A DNA stretch of 46,229 nucleotides from positions 1 through 46,229 of the IMG/VR virus record IMGVR_UViG_3300045110_000289; one strand, 5' to 3'. Origin of the DNA: a virus. The stretch's first letter is position 1; every line of letters starts with the position of its first letter. The notes below the pieces were generated by a model, which was given only the letters and a program-made list of their open reading frames with translations, did no database searches and was not told the origin of the DNA. Below are positions 213-45,618 of the stretch, one piece after another. A program made the translations under genes and the position numbers.

Positions 213-406
213 CACTCGACCACCGCGGGCGTCAAGTTGAGACCGTTGACGCGCGTCGTCAGTATTTGCAGGTCGCACTCGAGCGCCTGCATCCGCAGCA
301 GCAGATCGTCCACCTTGACGGTGACCGCCCCCACTTTCGTGTTGATCGCGCGCACGTTGCGCAGCGTCGCGTCCGCCGGGTTCCGCTTCTTCGCGTTCGC
401 CATCAC
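212..406 (-). CDS. Small coiled-coil-like protein downstream of portal
   Basis: The 64-residue product has a basic N-terminus (ANAKKRN) followed by a heptad-like hydrophobic pattern, so a short coiled coil is likely. The gene overlaps the portal stop, and both a GTG at 406 and an ATG at 403 are possible starts. Its stop overlaps the start of the Bbp19-like gene as ATGA, so all three are probably translationally coupled. I recognise no family. Position suggests a head assembly accessory protein, which is inference only. Confidence 0.65.
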   Translation of the reverse strand: MMANAKKRNPADATLRNVRAINTKVGAVTVKVDDLLLRMQALECDLQILTTRVNGLNLTPAVVE

Positions 407-2181
407 ATCACCGATCCCGCCGGCAGCGCCCCGGACGGCGCCACACTCTGTTGCGAGGCGGTCTGCGCCACCCGGCTCAGGAGACTGTCGCCCCCGAGCG
501 GCGTCTGACTCGCATCCTTCGCCGCGCCGGCGAGCGTCGCCGCCTGCTCGGCGTCCTGCGCCGCCTGCGCCACGTGCTGTTCCTGCGCGAGCGCCGCCTC
601 GGCCTCGTCAGTCGACCGGATCACCTTCGGATCGACGCCGAGCATCTCGCCGTAGTTGTCGAGCATCTGCGGCATGTTCAGCTTGTGCCGCACGATCGGG
701 CTGAACTCCGGCATCGCCGACACGATGCTGCCGGTCGTCGCGAGCAAGCGGTCCTGGCCGACCACGCCGACGAGCTTTTGCGCCTGGGCGAGAATCGAAA
801 TGTATTCGGTCTTCAACTTCACGCCGTGCAGGATGTCGGGCGGCGGCGGCACCAGCCCGTTCAGCTCCATCAGGTTGTAGACGCGGTCGATGATCGGATC
901 GAGGAGCTCGTCGTTCGTGCGCTCGAGCACCGGGCCGAGCGCGAGCAGTTTCTCTTCGTGCCGCTCCTCGACTTCGCGCGCGGTCGGCCGGTCGGCGCCG
1001 AGCCGGTCGTCGCTGCGCGCCAGCATGAGGAACAGGTCCTCGTAGAACGCGCGCTGGATGCGGTAGGCCACCTCGCCGATGTCGGCGGTGAGATGCTGAA
1101 ACCCCTCGAGCCGCACCTCGTGAATCGGCGCGAGCCCCTGCATGCCGTCGCGCACGTCGACGTAGGTGATGTCGCCCGGCAGCAGCGATGTCTTCTGCGT
1201 CTTGAGGTTGGTCGGCCCCTTGAGCGGCGGATTGACCGCCTTCTCGAGCAGTTGCCCTTTGCGCCGCTGCATGATCTGCAGCTGGTTGTTGTCGCCGAGC
1301 GCGGTCATGCCCGGGCAGTCGGTGCCGTAGGAATCCTCGCCGGTGATGTCCCACCGCGGCGCCATCACGGGGAAGGTCTCGAAGCCGCTCTCGCGCAGAA
1401 ACTTCGGTTCGCTCGATCCGGTTTCCCAGGAGCAGCTCGCCCACGGGAGGTGCTTGGCCTCCAGCCGGTGCGGGTCCGCCGACTCGTTCGGCTTCACCAT
1501 CCAGGTCACGTCGACCGGCTCTTCGTAGTCGCCGCGGTCCCACAGGTCGTGCACCGTCCCGCTGATCGGCGCCCAGTCGATGTCGCGCCCGTTGGCCTGC
1601 ACGCCGAACTCTTCGACAATCTGCCGCACCGTCAACCGATAGTCGCGGACGAAGGTCGTCGCCAAGCCGCGGGCATCCTGGCCGAGCGCGAAGGTGCCGA
1701 TCGGATAGCTGTAGCAGCGGAAGAGATCGCGGCTGTCCTGCACCATCGACATCGCGGCGGTGCCGAAAATCCCCATGTCGAGATAGACCAGCGGCAGCAC
1801 GTTGTAGAGATTGCTCGTGGCGAAGATCGTCAGCATGCGCATCGTGACGTCATGCAGCCAGAGCTTCACGGGCCCGTGTTTGGCGAGCGCGGGGTCGGGC
1901 GTCGTGAGCTTCATCCAGGGCCGCGCCGGCGAGGTCAGCCCGGCGTGCATCCCGGCGGAGAGCGTGCGTGCGGAGAACCGCCCGGTGCTGTCGATGATCT
2001 TCTGGTTGCGCTTGTCGCCCCGGTTGCGGTCGCTCGAGGTGAACCGGATCCGGCGCGGCATGAACATCTCGGCGAGCTCGCGCCAGTGGGCATCGAACCC
2101 GCTCTGTCGCTCGCTCCAGAGCGCGGCGCGCAGCTTGTCGTAGCGCTGGCGCTTGTCGAGCGGGTCCCGGTAGGCGGGCAT
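403..2181 (-). CDS. Portal protein (head-to-tail connecting protein)
   Basis: The 592-residue protein matches the length and pattern of podovirus head-tail connectors (T7 gp8 type, Head-tail_con). It would form the dodecameric ring at the unique vertex through which DNA is packaged and ejected. The N-terminus has the typical start of this family (YDKLRAALWSERQSG, then HWRELAEMFMPRR), followed by STGRFSARTLSAGMHAGLTSP, and later repeated TAREVEERHEEK helices. The C-terminus is Gln- and Ala-rich and probably a flexible tail inside the capsid. The ATG at 2181 overlaps the stop of the upstream gene, as in the rest of the operon. Confidence 0.93.
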   Translation of the reverse strand: MPAYRDPLDKRQRYDKLRAALWSERQSGFDAHWRELAEMFMPRRIRFTSSDRNRGDKRNQKIIDSTGRFSARTLSAGMHAGLTSPARPWMKLTTPDPALAKHGPVKLWLHDVTMRMLTIFATSNLYNVLPLVYLDMGIFGTAAMSMVQDSRDLFRCYSYPIGTFALGQDARGLATTFVRDYRLTVRQIVEEFGVQANGRDIDWAPISGTVHDLWDRGDYEEPVDVTWMVKPNESADPHRLEAKHLPWASCSWETGSSEPKFLRESGFETFPVMAPRWDITGEDSYGTDCPGMTALGDNNQLQIMQRRKGQLLEKAVNPPLKGPTNLKTQKTSLLPGDITYVDVRDGMQGLAPIHEVRLEGFQHLTADIGEVAYRIQRAFYEDLFLMLARSDDRLGADRPTAREVEERHEEKLLALGPVLERTNDELLDPIIDRVYNLMELNGLVPPPPDILHGVKLKTEYISILAQAQKLVGVVGQDRLLATTGSIVSAMPEFSPIVRHKLNMPQMLDNYGEMLGVDPKVIRSTDEAEAALAQEQHVAQAAQDAEQAATLAGAAKDASQTPLGGDSLLSRVAQTASQQSVAPSGALPAGSVM

Positions 2182-9465: not shown

Positions 9466-9467
9466 GC

Positions 9468-11273: not shown

Positions 11274-11309
11274 CAGGCCTCCGAACTGAGCGTTTCTGAG
11301 CGCACGACT

Positions 11310-12460: not shown

Positions 12461-12498
12461 GAACAGGAATTCCCAGTCTGTTGCGCGCGAGAAACCGA

Positions 12499-12579: not shown

Positions 12580-12791
12580 GCGATCTCGACCGCTTCCGCC
12601 CGCGGCCCCTTCGGGCCCGAGCCGACCAGAAACGTCACGGCCGTGCCTTCCCGCAGCGTGTGAAAATCCGGCGACGCCGACGAGTGGAAGAAATACTCGA
12701 CGCCGTTGTCGGCCCGAATGAACCCGAACCCTTTGTCATCGACCAGGCGCTTGACGACGCCCGGCACGCGGTCCCCTGTGTTGCGTCCCAT
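12576..12791 (-). CDS. Cold-shock-domain protein
   Basis: The 71-aa protein is a single CSP domain. It has an RNP1 motif KGFGFI (about residues 20-25) and an RNP2-like YFFH (about 33-36, usually VFVH), and the tail is as expected (GPKGPRAEAVEIA). CSPs bind single-stranded RNA and DNA and melt structure. In a phage early operon it may help translation of a structured, GC-rich mRNA. Length matches the family. ATG at 12791. Confidence 0.9.
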   Translation of the reverse strand: MGRNTGDRVPGVVKRLVDDKGFGFIRADNGVEYFFHSSASPDFHTLREGTAVTFLVGSGPKGPRAEAVEIA

Positions 12792-12809
12792 CTCGAATCC
12801 TCCTGTCGC

Positions 12810-30700: not shown

Positions 30701-32672
30701 GGTCCGGTCGCACCACGTCGAGGCCGTAGTTGTGCCGGGCCTGCAGATCGATCCCGGTGCGTTCCGACAGGTTCGAGACCACGTCCGCGAGCTCGGCGTA
30801 GGCCGACGCCTGCGAGGCGGGCACCCCGGCCGCGACGAGGCGGGACTCGACCGCGGTCCGGAGTGCGGAGACCGCCGGGGCGTCGGCGGTGGCGAGCGGT
30901 TCAGCCGCGAGCTGCTTGGTGAGCGCCTCGAGCTCGCGGCCGTTCATCGCCTCCGGGTCGAGACGCAGCTCGTTGACGAACGCGGCGTTGTGCTCGGTGG
31001 GGGCGATCTGCGTCACGTAGCGCGCGGTCGGGATCGGGAGGTCCCCGCCCGACTGGGTCGCGAACGCGTAGGCCTCAGGGCTGCCGGTCAGCTCGGCGGC
31101 CTTCGTCGCCGGGTCGACGCCCTTCGATTGCCAATACTCGTTCCAGTGCTCGAGCGGGGCGTAGAGGGTCTCGGCGCCGCCCTTCGTGGCGGAGGCGATC
31201 AGGGCTTCGATGGCCTCGGGGCTGCGCGGGATCGTTTTGGATTCGGCCGCGTCGGTGCCGAGTTTTTCGACAAAGCGCACAGCAGCGTGCGTGCTGATCG
31301 TCTGCGCCCCGATCGCTACGAGGGTGCTGATGGCCGTCGCCGCCGCTGCTGATGGGCGCGCATCGAGATAGTCCTGGAAGGTCTTCTCTTTATTGGACGG
31401 GAGCGCGAACCACTCACCGAGGTCCTGCAGGACCGTCGCGACTTCCTCGCCGGGGATCTCGCTCGCGATCTGATGCGCGAGCAGTTTCACGAACGGCGCT
31501 TTCGCGGCCAGGTCGCCGAGCAATTTGTGCGCCGGGATGAACTCGGTGGCGACTTCGACCGCGCCCTGGAAGGCGGCGAACGCAGCGGCCTTGTTGACCG
31601 GCACGCCTTCGGCCCGCGCTTGCGCATAGGCTTGCCCGCCCGTCGTGAGGCCGGCCAAGCCGAGCAGCACGGTCGAGCCGCCGCCTGTTGCCAGGCTTAA
31701 CGCGACCCCGGGCGCTTGCTGCACGAACGATTCGAGCCCGCTGTAGATCGACTGCTCGACAAAGCCCGCGCCCGGGCGCGGGCCGCGGCTGCGCTCCGCC
31801 AGGTGCTCGGCGACGGCAGCGCTCGCGGTCGCAAACGCGGCCACCCGGGCGAACGCGCCCGGCACCGGCGCGACGAACGTTTCGCCCTCCCACCGTCCGC
31901 CGTCGAGCGCGCCCTTGGAGTATTGCGACTCGACGGAAAACGTCGGATGCCCGTGCTGCTTGAACGTGTCCGGAAAGTGATCGACGCCGAACTGCATCGG
32001 CGTGCCGCCTGTCGCCTTGAAGTAGCCGCGATAGTCGTAGTGGCTGTCGGGGTGATCGACGTCGGTGATCTGGTTCGTGGCGGCCCACTGCTGAAATGCG
32101 GTTTCCTCCGGCGCGGTGAGGGTCGTAATTTCCGGGGCGCGGCGATCGAAGGCGGCGTAGTCCTGCTGCGCCTGCAGGCTGAGTTCCGCGCCCGCTTGGA
32201 TCGCGCCCCAGAGACTCTGACCGAGGCTCGCGATCCCCGCCGGCGCGATCCCCGCGAGATTCCGGCCGATGCGTAGCGTGTGATCCATCGCGGTCAACGG
32301 CCCGAGGTCGTCCTTCGCGATCGCGACGTTCGCCGGATCGTCGGCCAGCCAGGCGCCGAGGGTCGGATGATCTCGGCCCGCTGCCGCGACGTCGTCGGCC
32401 TGCGCCTGTGCCTGGTAATGCGGCAACTTGCGCGCGATGAGGGCGGAGGGAATCCCGTAACGCAACGCGAGTCGGCGGGCCTCGGCCGCGGCGTCTGGCG
32501 TCAGATCGCTGGAGGCTCTCGCCGTCTGCCGGAGCGTCGTGTCCTGCGCGGCCTGCCGATCGACGAGGAGATCGTGCGCGTCGTCGTAGAGCGTGCGGGG
32601 CTTCGCGGCCGGCGCGGCCTCCGGCACCGGCGCGAGTTGCTCGAGCGCCTCGTCGTAGAGGTTGCTCGCCAC
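24714..32672 (-). CDS. Giant ejection (gp16-like) polyvalent protein with ART-like and zincin modules
   Basis: The 2,652-aa protein begins at GTG 32672, overlapping the preceding stop (TAGTG). Domains in order: N-terminal helical part; a segment with HYDYRGYFKATGG and HFPDTFKQHGHPTFSVES near residues 205-250; an Ala/Gly-rich, membrane-like region (~290-420); an ADP-ribosyltransferase-like domain from about residue 1083 (YHGSPHDFDRF, GHGLYFAEN); a zinc-metalloprotease-like box HEMGH near 1390; then long coiled coils and a hydrophobic C-terminal region (GWNLWTALQQPLG). Position after internal proteins marks it as the largest ejected core protein. Longer start at 33065 overlaps the preceding gene and was rejected. 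Confidence 0.8.
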   Translation of the reverse strand: MASNLYDEALEQLAPVPEAAPAAKPRTLYDDAHDLLVDRQAAQDTTLRQTARASSDLTPDAAAEARRLALRYGIPSALIARKLPHYQAQAQADDVAAAGRDHPTLGAWLADDPANVAIAKDDLGPLTAMDHTLRIGRNLAGIAPAGIASLGQSLWGAIQAGAELSLQAQQDYAAFDRRAPEITTLTAPEETAFQQWAATNQITDVDHPDSHYDYRGYFKATGGTPMQFGVDHFPDTFKQHGHPTFSVESQYSKGALDGGRWEGETFVAPVPGAFARVAAFATASAAVAEHLAERSRGPRPGAGFVEQSIYSGLESFVQQAPGVALSLATGGGSTVLLGLAGLTTGGQAYAQARAEGVPVNKAAAFAAFQGAVEVATEFIPAHKLLGDLAAKAPFVKLLAHQIASEIPGEEVATVLQDLGEWFALPSNKEKTFQDYLDARPSAAAATAISTLVAIGAQTISTHAAVRFVEKLGTDAAESKTIPRSPEAIEALIASATKGGAETLYAPLEHWNEYWQSKGVDPATKAAELTGSPEAYAFATQSGGDLPIPTARYVTQIAPTEHNAAFVNELRLDPEAMNGRELEALTKQLAAEPLATADAPAVSALRTAVESRLVAAGVPASQASAYAELADVVSNLSERTGIDLQARHNYGLDVVRPDLAVLQERPPDATQTPSEAPSAAPEASSPALAETPLPADTQPAGEAITASGDVQANPVSATFLGHGPSGPLYNIVGGPSDRSTVSAGELAAQGIAIPETPDEAAQLNGEQLRAQAMETRAAARLDTAAATAESEGPDGAESETRSGAGGEGRPARNRIAPSFPRERERPAQRARREAEHVEGLFTHFHDAAQTLDPTVDPVDLRAEFDFRFAAWQDLNESYQDSGHDPLDLLRAIADNGGLNEESSSGWRGELADLKSGLKFGAVAGVGKVFRAATAKDGAGRPITGLPFDVMQQRLQQDPRFAWIENVNILFDQLDEIIRNPPNLRGLPGTDELRADVRMDERVAWWRDSWRPVDFDVTEFHQGPKDETAPGEAQPVLPGTEGVREQEIATPEFALPFALTSEKGTPTKHASKVGALFDELFQALYHGSPHDFDRFSSEKIGTGEGAQAFGHGLYFAENQDVAGGYQRDLARAGALTINGKPWQQARLTKTQREMLTAVEANNLRLNDRDIQQSLGDAYRESHATDKQWQTWTKDWNALAGRLEQAESKGFLYQVDIPDEHIATMLDWDAPLSEQSETIQRALIPLVQRSIDEEFTTLKDVSQATGKSAYAALRDQAVGWQTGSNVPVEQERAAASAALQALGIPGIRYLDQGSRQAGDGSHNVVVFDDSIVTVTHKDGTAVTATERKEFLQTAVAAPPTGAPDRRGSIRFGADHQFTISLLEKADPSTFLHEMGHFFLEVFGDAADVLTQRDPSTLTDAQRKVLADYGATLQRFGVESRDAITREHHEQWAREFEGYLFEGKAPSVGLRAAFSRFRAWLVGVYGSLTKLNVKLTPEVRAILDRLLASDQAIAEAEASRGIPALFTTAASAGMSDAEFSLYTKTITDANRTARERLDQQLLAEVRREQTAIWKTQRDAIQAIVTSETQAQPVYQALDAVRGPLKLAKDLIVDRYGKERLKSLPRPYVYTTSEEGVDPNLVAEMFGFSSGDELLAAVAQAPPMKAAIEQETTRRMLAEHGSLLLDGTLGESAHAAVADEDRDAIVRAEMKALRKLQRTVTPHVRLAEREGQGAVRATAAFGDREVSALKAQARGGAATIRGGIPPASVFRDAAQQRIAGATVRTLTPQVFASAARHAGVRAIEQAARQEFDQAIVSKQQQLFNEALAREATRAKDDVTDRAAWVESHNRTAARARLGLAGGSYLDQWDGVLDRYSFAKASPKVLDRLVSMRKWVEGLESQGLPVDLPEALLDDTRHVNYQELTVEQFVGVTDGLKALVHLAQLKNTLLKAVDERDFAVVRDGLVASIREHHDLQTVPLEFRPGDEKWRKVSRWFASHTKLAILARALDGHVDGGPMWEAFIRPINAAADAEEVRKQDAGAAYTAILETAYPGRELGTLNEKRFIPAIQASLSKEGRLAIALNWGNQTSRDRILADPRLKVNAQQVGAILDTLDERDWTFVQSTWDYLNTYWPEIAAKQERLTGLTPEKVEALPVTTKFGELAGGYYPLAYDGRKAARAGQHVAATDAKLATSAAYVRTTTKRGHVEARVQNVTLPLKLDLGVAFAHLDQVIHDLTHHEMLIDTTRLLRDSKVSEALYQTKVLATKGDLLYDQFTSMLQDLALGSSAGAGQPGVLDTAATFLRTRTQIAGMGWNLWTALQQPLGLFNGMSRVGPVWVARGMKRWLRDAATMQHTATWIAEVSPMMRSRVSTATQDLHDLRQQLRQPGGWFDQAVRTVSGDHVTQQTILDGYLWHIGIAQRVADIPTWLGGYEKAMAAGNDEARAIALADQGVLDSQGGGQIKDLAQVQRGSAVAKLFMTFYSYGNTVYNATAERASATDFAKPSEVLTFLGHLSLLTILPALATEGLRCATRTTCQDWPAYLQNVGGQILGDTMNMMVGLRELAGAAKIATGGEAGTRGYEGPAALRPITLVTQLAQQIHQGEADAAFWKATNAAAGILFRYPSAQVQRTVDGFVALEHGTTHNPLALLFGPPKAAK

Positions 32673-34432
32673 TACCGAGCCTTCTTGCGCGTCTGGATAT
32701 TGAGATAGAGATCGAGCACCGTCGAATCGCTGACCGGCTGCCGGTGCTCGCGCAGCGCGCGCTCGAGATCGGCGCGGTCCGTGGGGCTGATGTCGGCGAT
32801 CGTCGTGTCGAGCAGTGCTTTCCCAGGCGTCGCGCTGTGCCAGCCTTGCGATTGGAAGAACATCCCGAACCACGACGACCCCGGCGTGCCCGGAGTTCCC
32901 TGGCTGAGCAGATCGTCCACGACGCCTTGGATGTCGGCGTTGGTGACCTTTTTCCCCTGGTCCTGCGCCGCGGCGACGCGGAGATCGACCATCCGGAGCA
33001 GCGAGGCGCGGGCGTTCTTCTGAGCCGGTGAGTATTTCTCCTTGTCGGTCTGCGTCGTTTGCCACAGCGTGTCGTCGACGATCTGCTGATGGGTTCGGAA
33101 CCCGGCCAGGTCTTTGTCCGCCGCGGTCTTGTTGCCGGTGCGGATGTCGAGTTGCATCTTCGCGAGCTGTTTGAACTCAACCTGATCGAGCTTTCCGCGA
33201 TATTTCAGCAGGTTGTCGGTGGCGAACGCGGTCGGATCGTCGGCCGCTGTCTGCATCAGCCCGTAGTAGGTCGGGAGATCGGTCTCGACGCCGTTCCCCT
33301 TCGTCAGGACCTCAGCATACGAGCGCAACGCTTTGCGATCGTTGACATCGAATTTGGCCCAGATCTCGGCCGGAATTTTCGTGACGTCGTGGGTGCGCTC
33401 GACCAGATTGAGCGCGCCGGCCAGCGTCGACTCTTGAGCATCGCGCGTCGCCTTCGCCGTGATGTTGGCCTCGTGCTCGATGCGTTCGAGGACGGCGTCC
33501 TGCACGTCGGGGTCGTCGATCGCTTTCGCCTTCGTGCGTTGCTCTGCCAATGAGCCGCCGGCCGCAAGAATCTTCGCCGTCTCAACTTGCGCCTTCCCAC
33601 GGGTCGTGCCAACCGCGAGCGCTTTCTCGATGTCGTCCTGCTGCGTGCCGGCGATCTGATCCTTGTTGGCGGTGAAGTAGGTGTTGGCCTGCGCCGCTCG
33701 GTCCTGCGCGATCAGGCTCTTGATCACCCCGAGGTGCGTGTCGGTCGTGAACTTTTCGGTGAGCGCCTGGGTCGCCTCCGTACCGAGCCCTTGCCGCGTC
33801 GCGAACTGCCCGATCGCGTCGACGCCGTCCTGGAGCTCGATGTGCACCTGCCGCAGGTCGGTCGCATGGGCCGCCGCCGCGTTGGTGGAGTTGCTAAGAA
33901 ACGCGTTGAATTCGCTGACGTCGTGCGCCTGCTGCTCGGCGAAGACGTGCCGCAGGATCGGGCCCTGCAGGTTTTGCCAGTGGGCGGCTTTGTCTTTGTC
34001 GCCGAAGGCGGCGCGCTGGCGATCGTTCAGCGTGCCGTCGAGCTCGCCCGTGAATTGGTCGAACGCGGCGCTCGTCTCTTCCGGGAGGGATTGCGCGGCC
34101 TTCCCTTTCCGCGCGAGCGCGCCGGTCTGCGGATCGAAGAGCGCGGCGGAGGTGAAGGCGTCGAGCTTGTTGTTGTATTCGAGCTGCGCGACTTCGTCGG
34201 CCTGGCGCTGCGCGTCGAGGTGGACCGCGCGTTGCTCTTTGCCGAGCATCTGCCCGACCTGCCCGAGGGTCTGCCCGAGCTGCCCGAGGGCGGCCGCCTG
34301 GCGCTCACCAGAGGCGCCCTTCGCGCGGTCGAGCCCGACCCCGGTCGAGAGATCCGTCTCCGCGGCCGTCTTGCGGACGCCGGGAAGCGCGGCCGTGCCG
34401 ATACGCCGGGGGCCGTAAGTCACCGTTGGCAT
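32672..34432 (-). CDS. Internal virion (ejection) protein, gp15-like
   Basis: The 586-aa protein is highly helical and charged, with TVTYGPRRIGTAALPGVRKTAAE at the N-terminus and a GASGERQAAALGQLGQTLGQ repeat-like helix, as in podovirus core proteins. It lies between the gp14-like gene and the giant ejection protein, the same order as T7 gp14-15-16. It would line or extend the ejection channel. The ATG at 34432 overlaps the upstream gene. Confidence 0.75.
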   Translation of the reverse strand: MPTVTYGPRRIGTAALPGVRKTAAETDLSTGVGLDRAKGASGERQAAALGQLGQTLGQVGQMLGKEQRAVHLDAQRQADEVAQLEYNNKLDAFTSAALFDPQTGALARKGKAAQSLPEETSAAFDQFTGELDGTLNDRQRAAFGDKDKAAHWQNLQGPILRHVFAEQQAHDVSEFNAFLSNSTNAAAAHATDLRQVHIELQDGVDAIGQFATRQGLGTEATQALTEKFTTDTHLGVIKSLIAQDRAAQANTYFTANKDQIAGTQQDDIEKALAVGTTRGKAQVETAKILAAGGSLAEQRTKAKAIDDPDVQDAVLERIEHEANITAKATRDAQESTLAGALNLVERTHDVTKIPAEIWAKFDVNDRKALRSYAEVLTKGNGVETDLPTYYGLMQTAADDPTAFATDNLLKYRGKLDQVEFKQLAKMQLDIRTGNKTAADKDLAGFRTHQQIVDDTLWQTTQTDKEKYSPAQKNARASLLRMVDLRVAAAQDQGKKVTNADIQGVVDDLLSQGTPGTPGSSWFGMFFQSQGWHSATPGKALLDTTIADISPTDRADLERALREHRQPVSDSTVLDLYLNIQTRKKAR

Positions 34433-35365: not shown

Positions 35366-37588
35366 TCACCCACCCAATTCCACCGACGGCAGCACGCCGA
35401 GAATCGTCAACGGCAACGGATCGGTGTGCCGCAGAAACACGCGCCCATAGTCGCCGTAGGCGGACGACAACGTGATCTCCTCGATCCCGGTGAACGGCAC
35501 CCGCGCGAGCCCGGCCTCGAAGCCCTTGAGCTTCACCGCCGTGAGCCGCGTCGCATCGGGCCCGGCCTGAAACGTCCGCACCGACGCATCGAGAATCACC
35601 GACACCGCGCCGACGCGCTTCTTTTTGTCGCGGACGTCGACGCCCTGGACGTCCAGGTCGAGCAGGTCGATCTCCGCGAACCGAATCGCCAAGCCGGCGT
35701 GAATGACGCTCGCGGCGGGAATCGGGCCCGCGATCGTGCCCGCCGTGACGGTGAACGCCGCCGCGAGCGGCGAGGTCGGATCGCCGTTGAAGATCACCGC
35801 GCCATCCGCGACCACCGCGATCACCTGGCCCTCGAGGTGGTCGAGGCCAGTGATCGTCGTCACCGGCGCGCCGTTGTAGGTCAGGCCCGCATCGACGAAG
35901 AAGCTGTCGACGTTGAAGGTCTGGATCTCGCGCGATTCGAGGCGTTCGATGTAGCGCTTGAACACGCCGCCGATCGTCCGCCGCACGAGCAGGTAGACCG
36001 CGTCCTGGTCCGCCTCCGGGACGACGACGACATCTTCAAACCGCGCCGCGGCGCCGCTGTCGTGGCGATGCCAGCCCCAGACGTCCTGCTCGCGGATGTA
36101 GGTCAGGCCGAGCAGCGTGCCGTCCGAGCGACACGCCCAGACGATCGGGTGCGGCGTCTGCTGGTAGTCCATTCGGTCGATCGTGAACCCATCGAAGAGA
36201 TGCGCCGCGAAGAGCGAGAGGTCCCGGCCCGCGAGCCCTTCGACCTGCTGTTCGAATTGCAGATCGCGCACGATGCTGCCGCGCGCCTGCACGTAGAGGA
36301 TCGCGTTCCCGATCACGACCGGCCGCGTGCCGTTGCAGCCGATGTAGGTCTCCTGGTCGGCCGGGAGGTTCGCGGGCGTCAGCGGCACCTTGGGCTGCCC
36401 GACCGTCCACTCGCCGGCGTCGGTCATCACGATCAGCGCTTTCAGGCCGAGGAGATGGCGCACCGGGTTGTATTCGTTGCCGCTGATCTTGAACGTGATC
36501 GCGTCGTCGTCCTGCAGCGGCGACGAGATGGTGAAGTTCGAATGAAATCCGATGCGCGAGCCCCACACCGCGTCGGGCTCGAGCACGGTGTGCGCGAAGA
36601 TCCGCCGCTGCTGGTAGTAGGCCGCGGTCAGTGGATAGTTATCCGTCGTCGCGAACAGCACGCGCGGCAGCGGCGGCGTGACGGCGAAGTCGGGAATGAA
36701 CCCCGTGTCGCGAAACGACGGCGCGCCGACCGCCGTGCCGATGAACCCGAACGTGCCGTTCTGGTAGGGATCCTTGTAGACGTAATACTCAGGCGGCACC
36801 GGGCCGGCTGGCGGCGTCCAGTTCAGAATGTGCGGACTGGCCGGCGTGCCTTCGGTGATCGTGTTGACCTGCGTGATCACCGAGCCGGTGGACTCTTCGT
36901 AGGTGTCGGGCGCGGCCGACGTGACGATGTAGCTGAAGCTCTCGGTGCCGGCCGGGCCCGGCGTGATGATGATGGCGGTCGGCGGCTCGACGCCGGGCGT
37001 GGTCACGACCGGCCGGATGATCCACGAGGTCAGGGCCTGGTAGATCAGCTCGTGCGGCTGCACGACGAGCGAGGTCATCGTGATCGTGCGGCCGTTCTGC
37101 ACCCACTGAAAGCCGGCTGTGCCGAAAGGGGTCGGGATCTCGAGGATGTCGTCCGGCATCGCATACCAAAAGGCCGCGTTCGGCGGCGCGTGGTTGATGC
37201 CGGGGGCCACGGCATAGTAGTTGGTGCCGCCGCTCTCGACGATCGCGCCGATCGCGTAGTTCGTGCCGGCGTCCCACGCGTCGACGTCCTCGAGGCGCAC
37301 GAGCGCGCCGTTCTTGTAGACCCGCAGATAGAAGACGCCCGCCTCGAGGAGCACGCTCTCGCCGGCGATCTCGGAGACGTAGCGCAGCAGGAACGTCGCG
37401 GTCGAGTTGTCGCGCGATTCGTTGACGTAGCGGGTGCCGGGGCGGTTGGCGACGCCGCCGTGGCGGAGCACGAGGAAGTTGCGGCAGCGCCGCAGGCCGG
37501 TGACGTATTTCACGAGGTCCGCCCTGGCCGCGAGGGCGGGGGCGAGCTCGCCGCCGGCGAAACTCCGCGTGAAGACCGACTCGGCCAT
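35366..37588 (-). CDS. Tail tubular protein B-like (nozzle)
   Basis: The 740-aa beta-rich protein starts MAESVFTRSFAGGELAPALAARADL and continues with YVTGLRRCRNFLVLRHGGVANRPGTRYVNE, the opening motif of T7 gp12-type nozzle proteins. The gene follows the adaptor in standard order. It should make the six-fold nozzle below the adaptor ring. ATG at 37588 overlaps the upstream gene as ATGA. Confidence 0.9.
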   Translation of the reverse strand: MAESVFTRSFAGGELAPALAARADLVKYVTGLRRCRNFLVLRHGGVANRPGTRYVNESRDNSTATFLLRYVSEIAGESVLLEAGVFYLRVYKNGALVRLEDVDAWDAGTNYAIGAIVESGGTNYYAVAPGINHAPPNAAFWYAMPDDILEIPTPFGTAGFQWVQNGRTITMTSLVVQPHELIYQALTSWIIRPVVTTPGVEPPTAIIITPGPAGTESFSYIVTSAAPDTYEESTGSVITQVNTITEGTPASPHILNWTPPAGPVPPEYYVYKDPYQNGTFGFIGTAVGAPSFRDTGFIPDFAVTPPLPRVLFATTDNYPLTAAYYQQRRIFAHTVLEPDAVWGSRIGFHSNFTISSPLQDDDAITFKISGNEYNPVRHLLGLKALIVMTDAGEWTVGQPKVPLTPANLPADQETYIGCNGTRPVVIGNAILYVQARGSIVRDLQFEQQVEGLAGRDLSLFAAHLFDGFTIDRMDYQQTPHPIVWACRSDGTLLGLTYIREQDVWGWHRHDSGAAARFEDVVVVPEADQDAVYLLVRRTIGGVFKRYIERLESREIQTFNVDSFFVDAGLTYNGAPVTTITGLDHLEGQVIAVVADGAVIFNGDPTSPLAAAFTVTAGTIAGPIPAASVIHAGLAIRFAEIDLLDLDVQGVDVRDKKKRVGAVSVILDASVRTFQAGPDATRLTAVKLKGFEAGLARVPFTGIEEITLSSAYGDYGRVFLRHTDPLPLTILGVLPSVELGG

Positions 37589-37812
37589 CAGTTGATTCCG
37601 TGCTCCTCGACGAGCTCGCGGCCGTCCGCGGCATGATGGACGACGACGGCGCTGGCCTCCGGCTCTTGCTCAACGCGCGGGCCGCACCAGCACGCGCGCG
37701 TCTCCTCGTGCTCGCGCAGATCGTCGATTGGCGTGACGTGCACGTCGGGCCGGATCGTTGTGCGATCCAGCACCGGCCCCAGCCGAAGATGCATCGACGG
37801 ACGGTCAGCCAT
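37588..37812 (-). CDS. Small conserved phage protein, 74 aa
   Basis: The protein has VHVTPIDDLREHEETRACWCGPRVE and a C-terminal VVVHHAADGRELVEE. The DLREHE, CWC-x-P and H-x-x-DGRE pieces recur in small phage proteins located near structural genes. It is of unknown function. It overlaps neighbours at both ends. Confidence 0.65.
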   Translation of the reverse strand: MADRPSMHLRLGPVLDRTTIRPDVHVTPIDDLREHEETRACWCGPRVEQEPEASAVVVHHAADGRELVEEHGIN

Positions 37813-40800
37813 CAGTCCCGCCCCGTCAGCCAGTCCGGCAAATGATCATCGAGCGGCTGATGCTGCTCGCGCGCGTCGGCGAGCTTCGCGCCGCGCAGCG
37901 TCTCGCCATACATGCCCCACGCGAACCGCGCCGTCTGCGCGCGCTGCGCGACGCCCACGCGCGGCGGATCTTTCTGGCCGGTGTAATCCGGCCCGCGGCC
38001 TTCTTGCTCAGGCCGTGCCGGATCGATCAACGCGAGACTCGGCGCGAGCGACGCGGCGAGCCGCCAGGCGAGCGCTTCGCGGAAGAGATCGTCGGCGCCG
38101 GCGACGGTGCCCTCGACGCGGACGGTCACCTCGATCTGCGGATCGATCTCGTCGGTCAGGAGCAGCCCGCCGGTCCCATCGCGCGCCAGTCGGAACGGCG
38201 GCGGGTTGAGTTGAAACGTCCGCTTGCCGGCCTCCTTCACGATCCGCCGCACGAAGACGACCTCGGGGCCAAGGCGATAGCTGTAGGTCCAGTCATCGTT
38301 GACCGGCACGGTCGCCGTCCCGCCAACCAGGACGGGATCGATATAGGCGGTCGCAAACGCCCACGGATGATCGCGGAGCGTGCTGCGGAGCTCGGCCTCG
38401 AAAACCGCGCGAGCGGCCTGCGCTTCCCGCGATTGCTCACTCACCAAATTGGCAATCGTCCGTGCACCGATCCGCACGAGCCCCCGGTTGACGACGTCGA
38501 CGTTCGCGCGCGCATGGACACCGGTCTGATCGAGCGTGCCGGCGAGCGGTTCCTCGCCCGGATTGCCCGGCCGGATGATCAACGTCGCTTTGACGAGCGC
38601 TTCCTGATACTGCTTTTCGCAGTGCTCGACGATCCCGACCATGCGCGAGAGCGCCGGGGCGAAGACGCCCGCCAGTTTCCAGATCAACGCCTCGCGAAAC
38701 AACGGATCGCCGGTCGCCGCGGAGCAGTTCGGCCGGAAGGTGTATTCGAGCACCGCCCCCGGCCGGTTGGTCAGCAGGAGCCCGCCCGCCGTATCGCTGG
38801 AGAGTTGAAACGGCGGCGGCGTGGGATCGACCGCGCCCGTGCGCGGCACCGCGAGCCGGCGCTCGAACACGCAATCGGCCGGCCGGCGGTAGCTGTAGCG
38901 CCAGTCCGGGTTGAGCGGCGTCACTGACGTCCCGCCGAGGAGTGCCAAGGTGGCGTATTTCGTGGCGAAGGGCCACGGCACATCGCGCAAGACCTGGGTC
39001 ACCACGTCGGCGTAATGCATCCGCGCCTGCTCGGCGGCGGGCGAGGCTTCCGTCACCACGTCGCCGATCGGCTGGCTGATGCCGATCTTCGAGAGCGCCT
39101 GATTGATCACCAGCGTCGACCACGGCTTGCACTCGGCGCCGAAATCGGTCCCGGTGATGCCTGGCGGCGGCGGCGGGTTGCCCGGATCGTCGGGGTCGTC
39201 GCCATCGTCCGGATCGTCGGGCTCGTCATCCCAGCCGCCTGGGTCGGTGGGGACGGTGGGCGGCACCGGATCGATGTCGCCGTTACAGGACCAGCCGTTG
39301 TTGCACGCCTCGATGGTGCCGGGAATCACGAACACGTCGTAGACGATGCCCACGGCGTTCAGCGCCAGGCCGACTTGAATGGTATCGATCGCGCCGGCGA
39401 CGATGCCGGTCGAGCCGTTCAGCGTGCCGGGGAATTGATGCGAGGTCGTGCCGGTGTGTGACGGATCGCGCGTGAACGACGCCGCGTTGTGCGGGGTGAC
39501 GATCGCGAACATTGGCCGCCGGCCGCACGGCGTGAGCCCGACCGTCCGCAATGCGCTGCCGTCACCGACGTAGGTCGCGAGTTGCAGCACGCGCGCCATG
39601 CCGGGGTCGCCGCTGCCATCGTTGCGCCGGCAGGCCAGATAGGCGGTCTGCGCCAGGCTCGAGATCGAGATCCCCGGTTTGTAGGTGAGTTGGCCGAGGC
39701 CCATTGCGAGCCCGTTGGCATTCTCCGCGCCGGTCAGCGCCGACAGCGCCGCCGCGGCATGCCCCATGCCTTTGTAGCAAAGCCCCACGGTGGCATCGTT
39801 CACGCCCTCGAACAGCAGGAACACCGCTTCGGGGGTGAAGGTCGGGGAATCGAGCGGCGTGACGAAATCGGTCGCGCTGTTGGTGCAGTGGAGCGCGCCG
39901 GCGGCAAAGAACCGCAGGCCCGGATCGCCGATGGCGATCACCTGGTAGACCTTGTCGAGGAGATTGTTCTGCGCGTCGGCGCCAGCGATCCGGGCGAGCG
40001 TCTGCTGCTCGCGGCCATCCTCGACGCCGTTGCTCACGTAGGACGGGTCGAGCAGGACCTCGGCGGGCCCGAGCCCGTTGTAGTCACGATTGATCCCGTC
40101 GTGCCCGCCGTTCGCGCTCGAGAACCAGACCCACGGGCCGGTCCCGTCCGTCACGTTGCGCACCCACAGGAAGTGGATCGGGTGCCGGAAGATCAGATCT
40201 TGGAACGTGCTGTTGCCGGTGTAGAGGCCGCCGTAGATCAGGACGGGCGCGATCGGCGGCGGGCCCTTGCGCGCCCACGGGGACCGGGGATACGGCGCGT
40301 TGTGGATGCCCATCGCCGGCCGCAGCGGGGCGAGCACCGCGGGTGTCGTGTCCTCCGGTTGCCGGACGAGGTCCTCCTCGTAGAACGCGCCGACCGCTTC
40401 GACGACCGCGAACAGACTGCGGACCGTCGACTGCGACGCGCTGCTGTTCTTGGTGAACTTGAGCTCGAGCCCGCTCAGCGGGGAGATCGGATTGACGATG
40501 CCGTCCGGCAGATACGACATGCCGACCCAGCCGAGGGCAACCGCTTGCGTCACGGGGGCGTTGACATCGGCGCCGCCCGGCAGCTTGTAGCCGAGCGCGC
40601 CCGCGACCAGCGCGCCGACCTGCGAGCCGTAGCAGGCCACGCGCATCGCGACGATCCCCAGGATGCCCGGCGTTCCGTCCACCTCGCGCGCGGCATCCGT
40701 GCGAATCGACAGGACGGCGCCCGGCGTGCTCGAGGTGAGCGGCGTCAACGTGCGGAGGTCGGCCGGGCGTTGCCGGGCCAGGCGCCAGTCGCCGACCCAC

Positions 40801-42638
40801 GCGCCATGGTCCGCCGCGAACCCGCTCGCGTTCTGGAACATCAGCAGGAACGACCCGTCGAGCAGGCTGTCGGCCGAGAGCGTGATCTGCGTCGGCCCGT
40901 CGATCGAGAGGATCGTCGCCGTCTCACTGGTGCCGCCGTCGCCCGGGTTGATCGCGAGCCGGTAGACGCCCGCGGGCATCGGCCCGTCGCCGACGTTCCA
41001 GACCGGATCGTTGTCGGTCTCCGAGTTGTGGAGAATGTCGACCCAGGTCCCATCCTCGTGCACGAGCACGTCGGTCCCGTAGCCGCCGCAGTTAGTCCCG
41101 GTCGGCTTGTCCTTGAGCCCCCAGCCCTCGTGCCGCAGGCCCCACGCCACGCGCTTGGTGATCTCGAAACAGCCGCAGGGCGTATCGATGGCGATCGCCA
41201 TCGCGACCACTTGCGCCTTGATGGCGGCGACGTAGGCCGCGGTCGGCTCCGGCGTCGGGCCCGGCAGGGACGGCAAGCCGGCGACCGTCATGCCGACGAC
41301 CAGGCCGGTGGTCATCGGGAGCTCGGTCACGATGGCGGAGCCGGCGGCCAGCGTGCCTTGCAGCGCGAGCTCGCCCTGACTGGCGCCGATCACGATCATC
41401 CGTGAGCCGTTGTTCCAGTCGTAGCCGGGAAACCGATCGGCCCGACTGAACGTGATCGGGACGCTGCCGCTCGCGGTCGCCGGACTACTGATCACGACCG
41501 ACGCCGCGCCGCTGATCGTCGAGACGGTCGCCCCGACCGGGATCCCGGTCCCGCTGACCGCGTCGCCGGCGCGGATCTGCTCGGTCGACGTCAGGGCGCT
41601 GATCGTCGTGCTGGCGTTGGTGGTCGTGCCGATACGAACCGTGCTGCCCGGCAGCGGGAGCGCGGCGCCCATCCAATCGTCCACGTCGAGGATGCACGTC
41701 GAGAGCGTCGTCGTCCCGATCGTCGACTGGCCGATGTTCGTGGTCGTGTTCAGAGGCCCGTTGGTGCCCGGGCCGATGTCGAGCACGCTCGCGCCGTTCA
41801 GGTAGACCCGCCAGAAGGGCTTGACCGGGTCCACCGCCAGCCCCATCCGGTAGATCGAGTCGATCTTTTTCCAGACGTTGATCGGGATCGGTTGCGACGT
41901 GCCGAGGAGATCGCTACCCGTCGAAAAGACGTTGAAGAAGCTGATCGCGCCGCTCGGATTGAGCCACATCTCGAGGCCGTTATTGGTGCCGGTGATCGCC
42001 GCGACTTTATGAAGCCGCACCGCGGCGGCCGGGTAGCGCCGGATCCGAATGTAGAAGCGTTCCCATTGCTCGCTGCTGACGACGCCGGCTTCGAGCGGCG
42101 CGTGCTGATGGGAAATGCCGCCGCTCGAGCTATCGATCTTCAGCCCATACCCACCGAGGTGGCGCGAGGCGCCGCGGGCCGCCAGCGCGCTCGCGGTGCC
42201 GCTCGCCCCTTCGCCGCTCGCCGGGAGCTCGAACCCGTCAATCCAGCGGCGCTTGGCGAACGCGACGGGTTCCTCGTCATGGACCGGCGAGCCGTCGTCC
42301 TCGATCGCCGGCGCGAGCGCGAACACGCCGCGCCAGAAGTAGTGCGTCCGGGTCCCGAACAGGAAGCAGACGCCGAACCAGCCGCCCTCGCAGCGATCGA
42401 ACGTGCGCTCGTCGACCGGGAAGTTCTCATCGGTCCGGCTAAACCATTCCGAGGTGATGCACGGCGCGCGAAACGGCGCGGTGCCAAGTTGGAGCGGCGC
42501 GCTGTAGTCGACCGCGGCGACCGAGGGCGCCTTGTTGACCGCGGCGAGCGGCGACGTGGGATCCGTGCCGGCGAGGGCCTCGAGTTGGTCCTTGTCGGTC
42601 AGCCAGATCGTGTATTTCAAGAATGCGGTTTTTGCCAT
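37812..42638 (-). CDS. Giant adaptor fusion: lectin-like N-terminus plus two tandem gp11-like adaptor domains
   Basis: The 1,608-aa protein (ATG 42638) has a lectin/LamG-like beta region (about residues 150-340; e.g. GLEMWLNPSGAISFFNVFST), long beta domains with Cys pairs, an acidic/Pro linker near 1140-1160 (PDDPDDGDDPDDPGNPPPPP), then two copies of a tail tubular protein A-like domain at about 1165-1350 and 1378-1560. Both copies share the same sequence order (LVINQALSKIG / VVNRGLVRIGA; WPFATKYATL / WAFATAYIDP; YSYRRP / YSYRLG; PPFQL / PPFRL). Normally the adaptor is a ~200-aa single protein. Here, adaptor and receptor-binding parts are fused. Confidence 0.75.
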   Translation of the reverse strand: MAKTAFLKYTIWLTDKDQLEALAGTDPTSPLAAVNKAPSVAAVDYSAPLQLGTAPFRAPCITSEWFSRTDENFPVDERTFDRCEGGWFGVCFLFGTRTHYFWRGVFALAPAIEDDGSPVHDEEPVAFAKRRWIDGFELPASGEGASGTASALAARGASRHLGGYGLKIDSSSGGISHQHAPLEAGVVSSEQWERFYIRIRRYPAAAVRLHKVAAITGTNNGLEMWLNPSGAISFFNVFSTGSDLLGTSQPIPINVWKKIDSIYRMGLAVDPVKPFWRVYLNGASVLDIGPGTNGPLNTTTNIGQSTIGTTTLSTCILDVDDWMGAALPLPGSTVRIGTTTNASTTISALTSTEQIRAGDAVSGTGIPVGATVSTISGAASVVISSPATASGSVPITFSRADRFPGYDWNNGSRMIVIGASQGELALQGTLAAGSAIVTELPMTTGLVVGMTVAGLPSLPGPTPEPTAAYVAAIKAQVVAMAIAIDTPCGCFEITKRVAWGLRHEGWGLKDKPTGTNCGGYGTDVLVHEDGTWVDILHNSETDNDPVWNVGDGPMPAGVYRLAINPGDGGTSETATILSIDGPTQITLSADSLLDGSFLLMFQNASGFAADHGAWVGDWRLARQRPADLRTLTPLTSSTPGAVLSIRTDAAREVDGTPGILGIVAMRVACYGSQVGALVAGALGYKLPGGADVNAPVTQAVALGWVGMSYLPDGIVNPISPLSGLELKFTKNSSASQSTVRSLFAVVEAVGAFYEEDLVRQPEDTTPAVLAPLRPAMGIHNAPYPRSPWARKGPPPIAPVLIYGGLYTGNSTFQDLIFRHPIHFLWVRNVTDGTGPWVWFSSANGGHDGINRDYNGLGPAEVLLDPSYVSNGVEDGREQQTLARIAGADAQNNLLDKVYQVIAIGDPGLRFFAAGALHCTNSATDFVTPLDSPTFTPEAVFLLFEGVNDATVGLCYKGMGHAAAALSALTGAENANGLAMGLGQLTYKPGISISSLAQTAYLACRRNDGSGDPGMARVLQLATYVGDGSALRTVGLTPCGRRPMFAIVTPHNAASFTRDPSHTGTTSHQFPGTLNGSTGIVAGAIDTIQVGLALNAVGIVYDVFVIPGTIEACNNGWSCNGDIDPVPPTVPTDPGGWDDEPDDPDDGDDPDDPGNPPPPPGITGTDFGAECKPWSTLVINQALSKIGISQPIGDVVTEASPAAEQARMHYADVVTQVLRDVPWPFATKYATLALLGGTSVTPLNPDWRYSYRRPADCVFERRLAVPRTGAVDPTPPPFQLSSDTAGGLLLTNRPGAVLEYTFRPNCSAATGDPLFREALIWKLAGVFAPALSRMVGIVEHCEKQYQEALVKATLIIRPGNPGEEPLAGTLDQTGVHARANVDVVNRGLVRIGARTIANLVSEQSREAQAARAVFEAELRSTLRDHPWAFATAYIDPVLVGGTATVPVNDDWTYSYRLGPEVVFVRRIVKEAGKRTFQLNPPPFRLARDGTGGLLLTDEIDPQIEVTVRVEGTVAGADDLFREALAWRLAASLAPSLALIDPARPEQEGRGPDYTGQKDPPRVGVAQRAQTARFAWGMYGETLRGAKLADAREQHQPLDDHLPDWLTGRD

Positions 42639-42755: not shown

Positions 42756-43214
42756 TCAGTCGTCGCCGAGCGGATTCGCCGCGCCGGTCGCGGCCCCTGC
42801 CGGTGGTGGCGCACTCGGCGATCGTCGCGCCGCGATCTCCGCGTCGTGCTTCTGGCGGAGTTCCTCGGCGCCCGTCGTGATCGAGGTCGGCGTGTGCGGG
42901 TCGACCTTCTCCATCCACTTGGCCGAGAACTGTTCCTCGGCCGTCAGGATCCGGGTGACCTCTTTCGTGAGCGGGACCTGGGTGCGCGGGTCGAGCTTCG
43001 GCTCGCCGTCCTTGTCGAGCACGGGCGCGGTGAACGGGCCTTTTCGGGGCACTAAATCGAAGACGTCACCGATACGGCGGCGCGCGTCGCCGTAGTAGCC
43101 CTTGTCGGTGGCGCGGACGCGGAGCGTGGCGCCTTTCGCGGGACCCGCCGGCGGCGGCGCGGCGGCCTTGGCCGGCGCGGTCGATTTCGCCGGAGCGGGA
43201 GCAGTGGTGGTCAT
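42756..43214 (-). CDS. Hypothetical structural protein, 152 aa
   Basis: The N-terminus is Ala/Pro/Lys-rich (about 30 aa), followed by a small beta domain, TLRVRATDKGYYGDARRRIGDVFDLVPRKG, and a charged tail. The RATxxGYYG-RR-GDVF pattern is frequent in phage proteins between the major capsid and tail genes. It may be a head completion protein. ATG at 43214. Confidence 0.65.
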   Translation of the reverse strand: MTTTAPAPAKSTAPAKAAAPPPAGPAKGATLRVRATDKGYYGDARRRIGDVFDLVPRKGPFTAPVLDKDGEPKLDPRTQVPLTKEVTRILTAEEQFSAKWMEKVDPHTPTSITTGAEELRQKHDAEIAARRSPSAPPPAGAATGAANPLGDD

Positions 43215-43292: not shown

Positions 43293-43721
43293 CTACACCA
43301 CGAAATTCTTCGGGTAGGCGCGCGGCAGAATCGAGAACAGCGAGTGCGTCGTCAGCCAGGCCGTGCACGTCACGGTGCCGCCGGCCGTGGTGATCCGGAT
43401 CCCGAGGAACCGCTGCGTCGGCGTGCCCGGGGGAATCGCGATGAAGAACAGCGCCCCCGCGACCATCTCCGCGAGCGGGATCGTGCGCGAGGCGTGGACG
43501 AGAATGCCGGCGGTCAGCGCGGCATCGGTGGCCGAGATGACTTCGATCAGCGACGGCGCGACGGTGCCGAGCACGTCGACGCCGACGCCGAAGCCCATCG
43601 GCTCGCCGGTGCCGATCTGCCGGCCCGGCGTGGTCAGTCCGAGATCGATCGAATTGGTCGAGACGGCCGCCGCGCCAAACGCCTGCGCGTCTGAGACGAG
43701 GCCGAGCGCATCCAAGAACAT
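43293..43721 (-). CDS. Bbp16-like capsid cement protein
   Basis: The 142-aa protein begins MFLDALGLVSDAQAFGAAAVSTNSIDLG, which is the typical opening of Bbp16-type cement proteins from BPP-1-like phages, then a beta-type body ending with RAYPKNFVV. It binds the outside of the capsid and stabilises it. The ATG at 43721 is preceded by a GAGGAG box, and the longer GTG start at 43736 would put this box inside the gene. It follows the major capsid gene. Confidence 0.85.
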   Translation of the reverse strand: MFLDALGLVSDAQAFGAAAVSTNSIDLGLTTPGRQIGTGEPMGFGVGVDVLGTVAPSLIEVISATDAALTAGILVHASRTIPLAEMVAGALFFIAIPPGTPTQRFLGIRITTAGGTVTCTAWLTTHSLFSILPRAYPKNFVV

Positions 43722-43753
43722 GATGGAACTCCTCACAAAGGGCTCGCGCCCGG

Positions 43754-43793: not shown

Positions 43794-44918
43794 CTACGCG
43801 ACGAGCGCCTCGGTGTTGAGAATCGCGTCGACGGTCCGGATCGGGATGTCCCCGAAATACAGGATCCGTTTGCCCTCGAAGTTCTCGAACGTCAGCCCGC
43901 CGCCCAGCCCCACCTGGGTCCGCGCGAACTTGCGCAGATACCGCCGCGTCGTGCGGTTGGCGTAGAAGACCGGCTTGCCGAGCTTGTTCGGCAACGTCTC
44001 CACCGCTTGTTCCATGAGCGCGATCAGGTCGATGGTCACGCCCGCGTTCATCAGCGAGACGTCGAGGTTGCAGATCCGGACGACATAGCGCCAGTCCTTC
44101 AGCGCGATCCCGCCCTTCCACTGCCAGCGCTCCTGCAGGGCACGCATGCGCGATCCGGCCAGGCCCGCGGTCATCTCGACGGTGACTTCGCCGTAGTCCT
44201 CGTGAATCAACCCGGCCTTCGATCCTTTCGGGAAGATGCCGCTGACGGTGTCCTCGCCCCACGCGACGAGCCACATGGAGGTGTTGTCGGTGTCGACGCC
44301 GCCGGCCTTGATCACGTTGCTGCCGTTCGGCGCGGTCGAGAGCGAGTAGCGGACGCTCAGCCCGGTGAACTCTTCCGGCGCGAGGCCGCCGTTGCCGTAG
44401 ATGATCGTTTGCTGCATTTCCTCGTTCATCGCTTCGATGAAGGCGCGCGCTTCCGACAACCGAAACGCCTGCACGTTGCCGTTGAGCAGCGCGAGATCTT
44501 TGTCGACCTCGGACCAGGCCTCGAGCATGCCGGCCTGTTCGTCGATCTGCGCGGTGGTCGATTTGCTCGGCGTGATGCCCTGATTGAGCAAGCGCCACGC
44601 GACCGCCGGCAGGCCGGTGCGCACCGTCGTACGATGCCCGGTTGGCAGGTTGCCTTCGCGCCAGACCATGTCGTCGAGCATCTCGTTGGTCTGCATGAGC
44701 AGCTCGATGATGGTCGGGACTTTGCCGTCGGGATCGAGACGTTTGCCCCAATCGGCGAGCGTCAGATTGCCGGTGCCGAGCGCGACACCCACGACGCCGA
44801 GGCCGAGCCAGACGCCCCAGTGCAGATGCGGCGACGGGGGCGACGCGCCAACACTCGCGGCGCTGAGATCGATCGCGAGCAGCGCGACCGCGACGAAGAG
44901 ACACATCAGAAATCGCAT
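43794..44918 (-). CDS. Major capsid protein with hydrophobic N-terminal extension
   Basis: The 374-aa protein has a full HK97-fold-like podovirus capsid sequence from residue 49 on (TGNLTLADWGKRLDPDGKVP, then TGHRTTVRTGLPAVAWRLLNQG). Before it come ~48 residues with a signal-like hydrophobic start (MRFLMCLFVAVALLAIDLSA) and a second hydrophobic patch (HWGVWLGLGVVGVAL). A GGGAG box sits seven bases before ATG 44918, so translation should start there. A GTG at residue 43 could be a second start giving the normal capsid form. It self-assembles on the scaffold. Confidence 0.88.
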   Translation of the reverse strand: MRFLMCLFVAVALLAIDLSAASVGASPPSPHLHWGVWLGLGVVGVALGTGNLTLADWGKRLDPDGKVPTIIELLMQTNEMLDDMVWREGNLPTGHRTTVRTGLPAVAWRLLNQGITPSKSTTAQIDEQAGMLEAWSEVDKDLALLNGNVQAFRLSEARAFIEAMNEEMQQTIIYGNGGLAPEEFTGLSVRYSLSTAPNGSNVIKAGGVDTDNTSMWLVAWGEDTVSGIFPKGSKAGLIHEDYGEVTVEMTAGLAGSRMRALQERWQWKGGIALKDWRYVVRICNLDVSLMNAGVTIDLIALMEQAVETLPNKLGKPVFYANRTTRRYLRKFARTQVGLGGGLTFENFEGKRILYFGDIPIRTVDAILNTEALVA

Positions 44919-44943
44919 AAAGCCACTCCCTACGTGATGCGCG

Positions 44944-45618
44944 TCAGGACCCCTTCGACTCGCCGTAGAGCACGGTGGCCGCGTCGCGTGTGACGCCGCC
45001 TGGGCCGCCTCCCCCGCGCGCCGGGGTGTCTTCCGCCATCGTTTTGCCGAGGTCCGCCAGAAAGGCGACAACCTCGAGCTTGTTGCCGTAGCCGGTCTTG
45101 CTCAGGAGCGCGCGAAAGGCATCGCCTTGGGGCGTCCCGGCCGGCCGCACTTTGTCCAGCACCAGGCGGACATGCCGTTCGGTGTCGGGGAAGCGATCCC
45201 CGCCGTAGGTCTCGTCCGCCTGCACCTGCGCGCGGAAGGCTTGGCTCTGTTCGGCGAGCGCCGCGACGTGATCGGTCACGAATTGCTGCGCCGCCTCGTT
45301 GGTCAAGCCTTCTTTGCGCGCGATCGTTTCGAGCTGCTTCAGATCCGCCGCGTCCAGCCACAGCTCGCCGCCCTCAGGGATCGTCAGCTCGTATTTCTCC
45401 GGGGCCTTCGGCTCTTCCTTGGGAGCGCCGTCCTTGCCCGCGGGTGTGTCGGCTGGCTTCTCGTCAGGCTTCTTCTCGTCGGCCTTCGCCTCGGGCTTCT
45501 CGTCCGCCTTGGGTTCAGGCTTCGCGTCGGCCGCGGGCTTTGGATCGCCTGCGGGTTTCTCGTCGGTGCCGGCAGACTTCGCGGGTGCTGCGTCGCCGGA
45601 TTTCTGCTCATCCGCCAT
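44944..45618 (-). CDS. Scaffolding protein
   Basis: The 224-residue protein has a very charged, Pro/Lys/Glu/Asp/Ala-rich N-terminal half (repeat-like DEKPE, ADEKK), a helical middle (about residues 85-150) and a Gly-rich C-terminus. It lies directly before the major capsid gene, as usual for podovirus scaffolds that shape the procapsid and leave during maturation. ATG at 45618 has GGAG about eight bases upstream. Confidence 0.8.
   Translation of the reverse strand: MADEQKSGDAAPAKSAGTDEKPAGDPKPAADAKPEPKADEKPEAKADEKKPDEKPADTPAGKDGAPKEEPKAPEKYELTIPEGGELWLDAADLKQLETIARKEGLTNEAAQQFVTDHVAALAEQSQAFRAQVQADETYGGDRFPDTERHVRLVLDKVRPAGTPQGDAFRALLSKTGYGNKLEVVAFLADLGKTMAEDTPARGGGGPGGVTRDAATVLYGESKGS

Follow-up and report, generated by a model that had tools for sequence, protein, structure and literature searches.

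A duplicated gp11-type adaptor fused to a predicted lectin-like arm in an uncultured short-tailed phage

Introduction

In short-tailed phages a ring of twelve identical adaptor units meets a nozzle of six units, and one adaptor sequence must therefore make two different contacts. In T7, a neighbouring pair of gp11 adaptors meets one gp12 through the α1-α2 loop, in two alternating conformations (PMC6702177), and in P-SCSP1u two adaptors are contacted by one nozzle subunit (PMC10575957). In epsilon15 the twelve-fold portal sits on a six-fold hub (PMC12391199). The docks of adjacent adaptors differ in SU10, whose adaptor ring also bears host-contact appendages in the form of fibres, separate trimeric proteins attached at six sites (PMC9509320).

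The adaptor of T7, gp11 (tail tubular protein A; 6r21, 7ey7), is a single unit of approximately 196 residues without any arm, built, like that of KP32 (5mu4), from a helix bundle and a beta fibre dock, and its gene lies between the capsid and nozzle genes. The Carin1 connector (8ck1) and the “tail tubular protein A” of epsilon15, BPP-1 and Tr60_Ab31 (phrog_394) belong by sequence to the same family as the protein described here; in the annotated records matched they are free-standing single units of approximately 200 residues.

The protein in question is a variant of this adaptor family containing two adaptor units, and it is encoded in a 46,229-nucleotide stretch of viral DNA (IMG/VR record IMGVR_UViG_3300045110_000289), the whole of which is referred to as the window. 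A first-pass annotation of the sequence had read the gene as a duplicated head-tail adaptor fused to a lectin-like region; the presence of both in one chain is confirmed by the analysis that follows.

Genomic context

Structurally, the phage of the window is of the epsilon15/BPP-1 type, with a short tail. The fusion gene (37812..42638, minus strand) lies, as gp11 does in T7, between capsid and nozzle genes: upstream are the major capsid protein of the epsilon15 GP7 type (43797..45071, minus strand, with its true start within the frame; PF20911, E 2e-122) and a Bbp16-like cement protein (43296..43736, minus strand; PF21190, E 5e-14), while the next gene downstream encodes a gp12-type nozzle (35366..37588, minus strand; phrog_376, E 8e-154). 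A protease gene (44944-45618) belongs to the same cluster, and the sole portal gene (Head-tail_con; 403..2181, minus strand) is recognised by PF12236 (E 3e-140). The order portal-protease-MCP-cement-adaptor-nozzle is shared with Carin1, epsilon15, BPP-1 and Tr60_Ab31. The portal and capsid genes stand at opposite ends of the contig, arranged as would be expected of a circularly permuted genome. Further genes of the window encode a gp14-like internal protein, an endolysin and a collagen-containing tail fibre.

Three other features of this region deserve mention. A 2,783-residue protein (24714-33065, minus strand) occupies the usual place of a large internal virion protein; its LPD22 domain and, at residues 1213-1257, a weak match to ART-PolyVal (ADP-ribosyltransferase) are both typical of polyvalent proteins. 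Between the cement protein and the fusion gene there is an ORF of 152 residues (42756-43214, minus strand) with coding-like GC, for which no significant family match was found. Residues 104-127 of the nozzle (35366-37588) form a CBM5/12-like stretch (CBM_5_12, E 0.015, below the cut-off), and similar stretches (W..G..V...G..Y...) occur in the adaptor unit of one relative (L013) and in the arm of another (L009), as if, judging by these motifs, a chitin-binding-like module had moved among neck proteins.

Architecture and reality of the fusion

The fusion gene consists of 1,608 codons in one open frame with no internal stops, and its GC content by codon position (0.65/0.52/0.89) follows the coding pattern common to the other genes of the genome. 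The product begins with an all-beta arm (residues 1-1125; 39264..42638), within which a concanavalin A (ConA)/LamG-like jelly roll (residues ~109-330, plus 405-417; 41649..42314) is interrupted by an insert (residues 334-604; 40827..41639). An acidic, proline-rich linker (residues ~1127-1165; 39144..39260), evident in the sequence and following an arm model whose end is of low confidence, leads to adaptor copy 1 (residues 1177-1354; 38577..39110), which is joined by an RPGNPG linker (residues 1355-1372; 38523..38576) to adaptor copy 2 (residues 1373-1592; 37863..38522). The chain closes with a short tail (residues 1593-1608; 37815..37862) ending in PDWLTGRD, a motif also found in 31 arm proteins with a single adaptor. 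All these features are on the minus strand, and the ORF coordinates and domain boundaries proposed earlier proved correct, as judged by the frame, the placement of phrog_394 and the all-beta N-terminus of the AlphaFold2 model.

A frameshift error had been named beforehand as something that could undo the fusion. In a few relatives the frame of the arm or of the fusion is indeed interrupted by stops or frame changes, through sequencing error or decay (L007, L024, L026, L030, L044, L062, L065), which is what an assembly or sequencing artefact might produce. Against this, the same layout is found in 23 IMG/VR contigs besides the window, the homologues that the first-pass annotation had proposed to search for; across the tandem region many independent contigs show 42-55% identity, the inter-copy linker is conserved and the copies have residues of their own. 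The fusion can be taken as real because the same design recurs in more than 20 other uncultured phage contigs, so that a frameshift or assembly accident is ruled out for the window and the probability that fusion or duplication is artefactual is negligible.

The question of whether the phage makes any other adaptor was also addressed. Eleven arm-tandem contigs besides the window, examined whole or as the record gives them, have one portal, one nozzle and no free adaptor; the same is true of the contigs examined over their full length, whether they have a tandem or a single adaptor, with the exception of L014, described at the end, and L094, in which a portal match is missing. A separate adaptor gene elsewhere was thus not found in the tandem contigs checked, and an arm-free adaptor made from an internal start was rejected as well, given that none of 71 ORFs has a start near the adaptor preceded by a Shine-Dalgarno sequence. 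With no free adaptor in the contigs checked, the fusion protein must fill the neck ring.

The two adaptor units

The C-terminal region is matched by phrog_394 (“tail protein”) in two stretches (E 3e-50). The two copies share 44% identity across 158 residues, with a Smith-Waterman score of 301 compared with 33 ± 6 (maximum 67) in 1,000 shuffles. A profile built from 21 tandem sequences recovers solved adaptor structures: for unit 1 it finds the Carin1 connector (8ck1, E 1.3e-14) and LME-1 orf17, and for unit 2 KP32 5mu4, Kp9 7y1c and, weakly, T7 gp11. Each unit is thus placed by its matches to adaptors of known structure in the phrog_394/T7 gp11 family, and the departure from that family is that two units share one frame instead of the usual one per chain.

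The predicted folds agree with the profiles. AlphaFold2 models both units as two helices, seven strands and two helices (pLDDT 83), that is, a four-helix up-down bundle with an inserted beta fibre dock as in 8ck1, 7ey7, 5mu4 and 7wmp; the mutual placement of the units in the tandem model is undefined (pTM 0.49). In VIA-align the best matches, chiefly over unit 1, are Carin1 8ck1 (Z 19.2), LME-1 (14.4), T7 (13.3) and KP32 (13.2), the last two corresponding to a fold Z of about 13. Unit 2, whose elements in the model span H214-H433, aligns with KHP30 (Z 9.3) and B2 (Z 8.4), and 7wmp aligns with model residues 218-445. The earlier proposal of two gp11-type copies with the same order of elements, and its condition that both repeats be predicted with this fold, are borne out by these results.

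The N-terminal arm

The arm (residues 1-1125) is modelled as an all-beta structure with pLDDT 75 and pTM 0.78 (AlphaFold2, 47-row alignment). Its best-defined part is, in the model, a concanavalin A/LamG-like jelly roll: residues 109-417 superimpose on 3zyp (VIA-align Z 16.7, rmsd 2.8 over 184 residues), and the CBM66 structure 4azz is matched by Foldseek (TMt 0.67). The lectin-like part announced by the first-pass annotation is thereby located, as a predicted fold, within a separate all-beta region. The fold matches listed centre on this domain, residues ~790-1130 being scarcely covered. LamG/ConA-like and CBM66/CBM40 lectin domains have the jelly-roll fold predicted here, with an identity of only about 10-15%. 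The Pfam family Laminin_G_3 matches 9 of the 47 arm members (best 2.9e-7; significant in some of those nine) and has no significant match in the protein of the window. Among the fold matches are also botulinum-toxin and sialidase entries, which are explained by the general ConA-like jelly roll and do not denote a toxin.

The insert within the lectin domain (residues 334-604) is modelled with low confidence (pLDDT <50) and is missing in one relative (L002). Part of it is a module of approximately 110 residues (FEITKRVAW...GTNCGGYGTDV...; residues 459-567, window 40938-41264, minus strand) that is also present in L006, L009, L017, L025, L028, L035, L045 and L046, its position varying along the arm: it lies near residues 768-776 in L006, L009, L025, L028 and L035, and near residues 848-876 in L017 and L045. 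No significant match to this module was found in Pfam, PHROG or annotated phages.

Relatives and origins of the tandem

Scans of IMG/VR detected the arm at approximately 44 loci and the adaptor at 79. After removal of duplicate contigs and most near-copies, the set used for trees comprises 33 arm proteins with a single adaptor, 24 arm proteins with a tandem (including the window; copy 2 is truncated in two of the 24), one arm protein with three units (L056), 35 free-standing single adaptors and three armless tandem adaptors (L072, L073, L094). Because many relatives have an arm and one adaptor, and three contigs have a tandem without an arm, duplication and arm fusion are two separate events; AU tests of single-first and tandem-first histories single out neither order.

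Copy-2 units form one group (SH-aLRT 90 for the whole domain, 99 for the bundle) and copy-1 units cluster with the single adaptors that carry an arm (SH-aLRT 88). The three armless tandems fall in a separate cluster together with free adaptors, also with moderate supports, which suggests that tandem adaptors arose independently at least twice. Outside this set, only single units are seen among the matches listed from 50,697 annotated phage records, with a matched stretch of approximately 550-650 bases in most of them. Scans of cellular genomes returned no relative of the whole protein and single-unit matches only for the tandem, and no tandem or arm-fused adaptor was found in the literature covered, which leaves subscription journals largely outside.

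The protein with three units (L056, 2-2491) has a middle unit with a copy-2-like front and a copy-1-like dock, which looks like the product of unequal crossing-over or of misassembly.

Divergence between the copies

The inter-unit linker is short in all arm-tandem proteins, and in nearly all of them it contains PGNPG or a variant differing in one residue. The motif W-I/L-x-G-R is never found between the units; it stands at the extreme C-terminus of almost all arm-tandem proteins, and of 31 single adaptors with an arm. Single adaptors resemble copy 1 at 12 of the 14 diagnostic columns of α1-α2. In copy 2 this region is near-invariant and has residues of its own, namely Q1402, E1416 and L1417 (each in 22 of 22 phages) and R1404 and E1414 (each in 21 of 22), a pattern that points to copy 2 having acquired its own α1-α2 surface. 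The notion that copy 1 keeps the bundle and copy 2 keeps the dock was hinted at by column divergence and is unsupported by identity to free adaptors; the dock-versus-bundle difference itself is weak after allowing for neighbouring columns (circular shift 0.078). What survives of it is the derived α1-α2 surface of copy 2.

Proposed assembly of the ring and probable role of the arm

In our preferred reading, to which we give about an even chance, six two-unit chains fill the twelve ring positions as pairs, with one arm for each nozzle subunit. The six chains would dock onto the twelve-fold portal, copies 1 and 2 of each chain would occupy adjacent positions, and the α1-α2 region of copy 2 would differ since the two neighbours would contact a shared nozzle subunit at distinct sites; in T7, too, two gp11 neighbours meet one gp12. 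A diverged tandem would in this way split the two contact roles into two sequences, each separately mutable. The preferred reading is favoured by the gp11-type profile and fold of both units and by the independent tandem lineage (L072, L073, L094); the linker of approximately 18 residues may join ends that, by comparison with T7-type bundles, would lie on the portal side. The fuller proposal, of a pseudo-twelve-fold ring made by six chains of specialised tandem units, with the change from twelve to six encoded in the sequence, a lectin-like arm per pair and at least two origins of the tandem, stands in our judgement slightly below an even chance. In the double jelly-roll capsid proteins of adenovirus/PRD1 type, a duplication in tandem likewise allows a ring of higher pseudo-symmetry to be completed with fewer chains; the comparison is an analogy only, as fold and role are unrelated to those of the adaptor.

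Each pair would be matched to a single nozzle subunit and would present a single arm, so that the collar would bear six arms, a number probably set by the two-unit design, whereas twelve arms would be expected in the relatives with a single adaptor. Arm copy number would accordingly vary with the adaptor units per chain, of which natural relatives have one, two and perhaps three. A lectin-like arm on the adaptor would put host-contact material at the collar, where it would probably bind surface polysaccharide, weakly and reversibly, and so aid adsorption; weighing against this role is the separate collagen-like tail fibre that the phage also has. The ring of SU10 offers a parallel, in that its adjacent adaptors are non-equivalent and host-contact appendages are attached to it (PMC9509320), with the difference that the appendage proposed here is part of the adaptor chain.

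The main rival is an arrangement of twelve chains in two stacked twelve-fold rings, with copy 2 facing the portal and copy 1 the nozzle, which would give a longer neck and twelve arms. The W-I/L-x-G-R tail is kept only by copy 2, and its T7 counterpart embraces the portal (PMC6702177); copy 1 retains the ordinary nozzle-side residues of α1-α2; and the three units of L056 would simply be three rings, whereas they fit six pairs badly, an unexplained exception unless L056 is misassembled. However, in T7-type bundles helix 4 appears to end, and helix 1 to begin, on the portal side (judging from PMC6702177), so that a linker of 18 residues would need to span the entire upper unit, and the literature covered yielded no neck with a doubled adaptor ring. 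We consider stacked rings unlikely.

It is also conceivable, if rather improbable, that the ring is single and built from twelve chains, each contributing one unit, and that the other unit stays outside to anchor fibres or the arm. Extra beta inserts of approximately 75-90 residues in the copy 1 docks of four relatives (L034, L039, L040, L047) are what would be expected of a peripheral element, and the adaptors of SU10 do dock long fibres (PMC9509320). Nevertheless, both units retain a full helix bundle and the core motifs, and conservation within each class is equal for the two (mean identity of 54% for copy 1 and 57% for copy 2), which a spare decoration would not need. Concerning the inserts themselves, that of L040 is E1_FCCH-like, below the Pfam cut-off, and L094 has inserts at the same dock site in both of its units.

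Finally, the chain, once assembled, could be cleaved by an enzyme of the host or by the protease of the phage, leaving arm and adaptors to act separately. The protease gene of the same cluster and the acidic, proline-rich linker, which would be exposed, speak in favour of cleavage; the fusion is nonetheless kept in one frame in approximately 50 contigs, and the arm of L014 is joined to another kind of structural domain, so that the covalent link appears to be of importance. Cleavage is, in our view, very unlikely.

The case of L014 differs from all those above. Its arm is joined to a structural domain of phrog_399 in place of a phrog_394 adaptor; a phrog_394-type C-terminus was considered and discarded, no relation being detectable. 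The phrog_394 adaptor, the phrog_376 nozzle and the PF12236 portal all lack a match in L014, and phrog_399 is absent from SU10, N4, P22 and Tr60_Ab31. A free phrog_399 gene lies directly upstream of the fusion gene, the two occupying 8355-8996 and 8929-12798, and if phrog_399 is the adaptor of L014, this phage would have arm-bearing and arm-free versions side by side, as separate chains.
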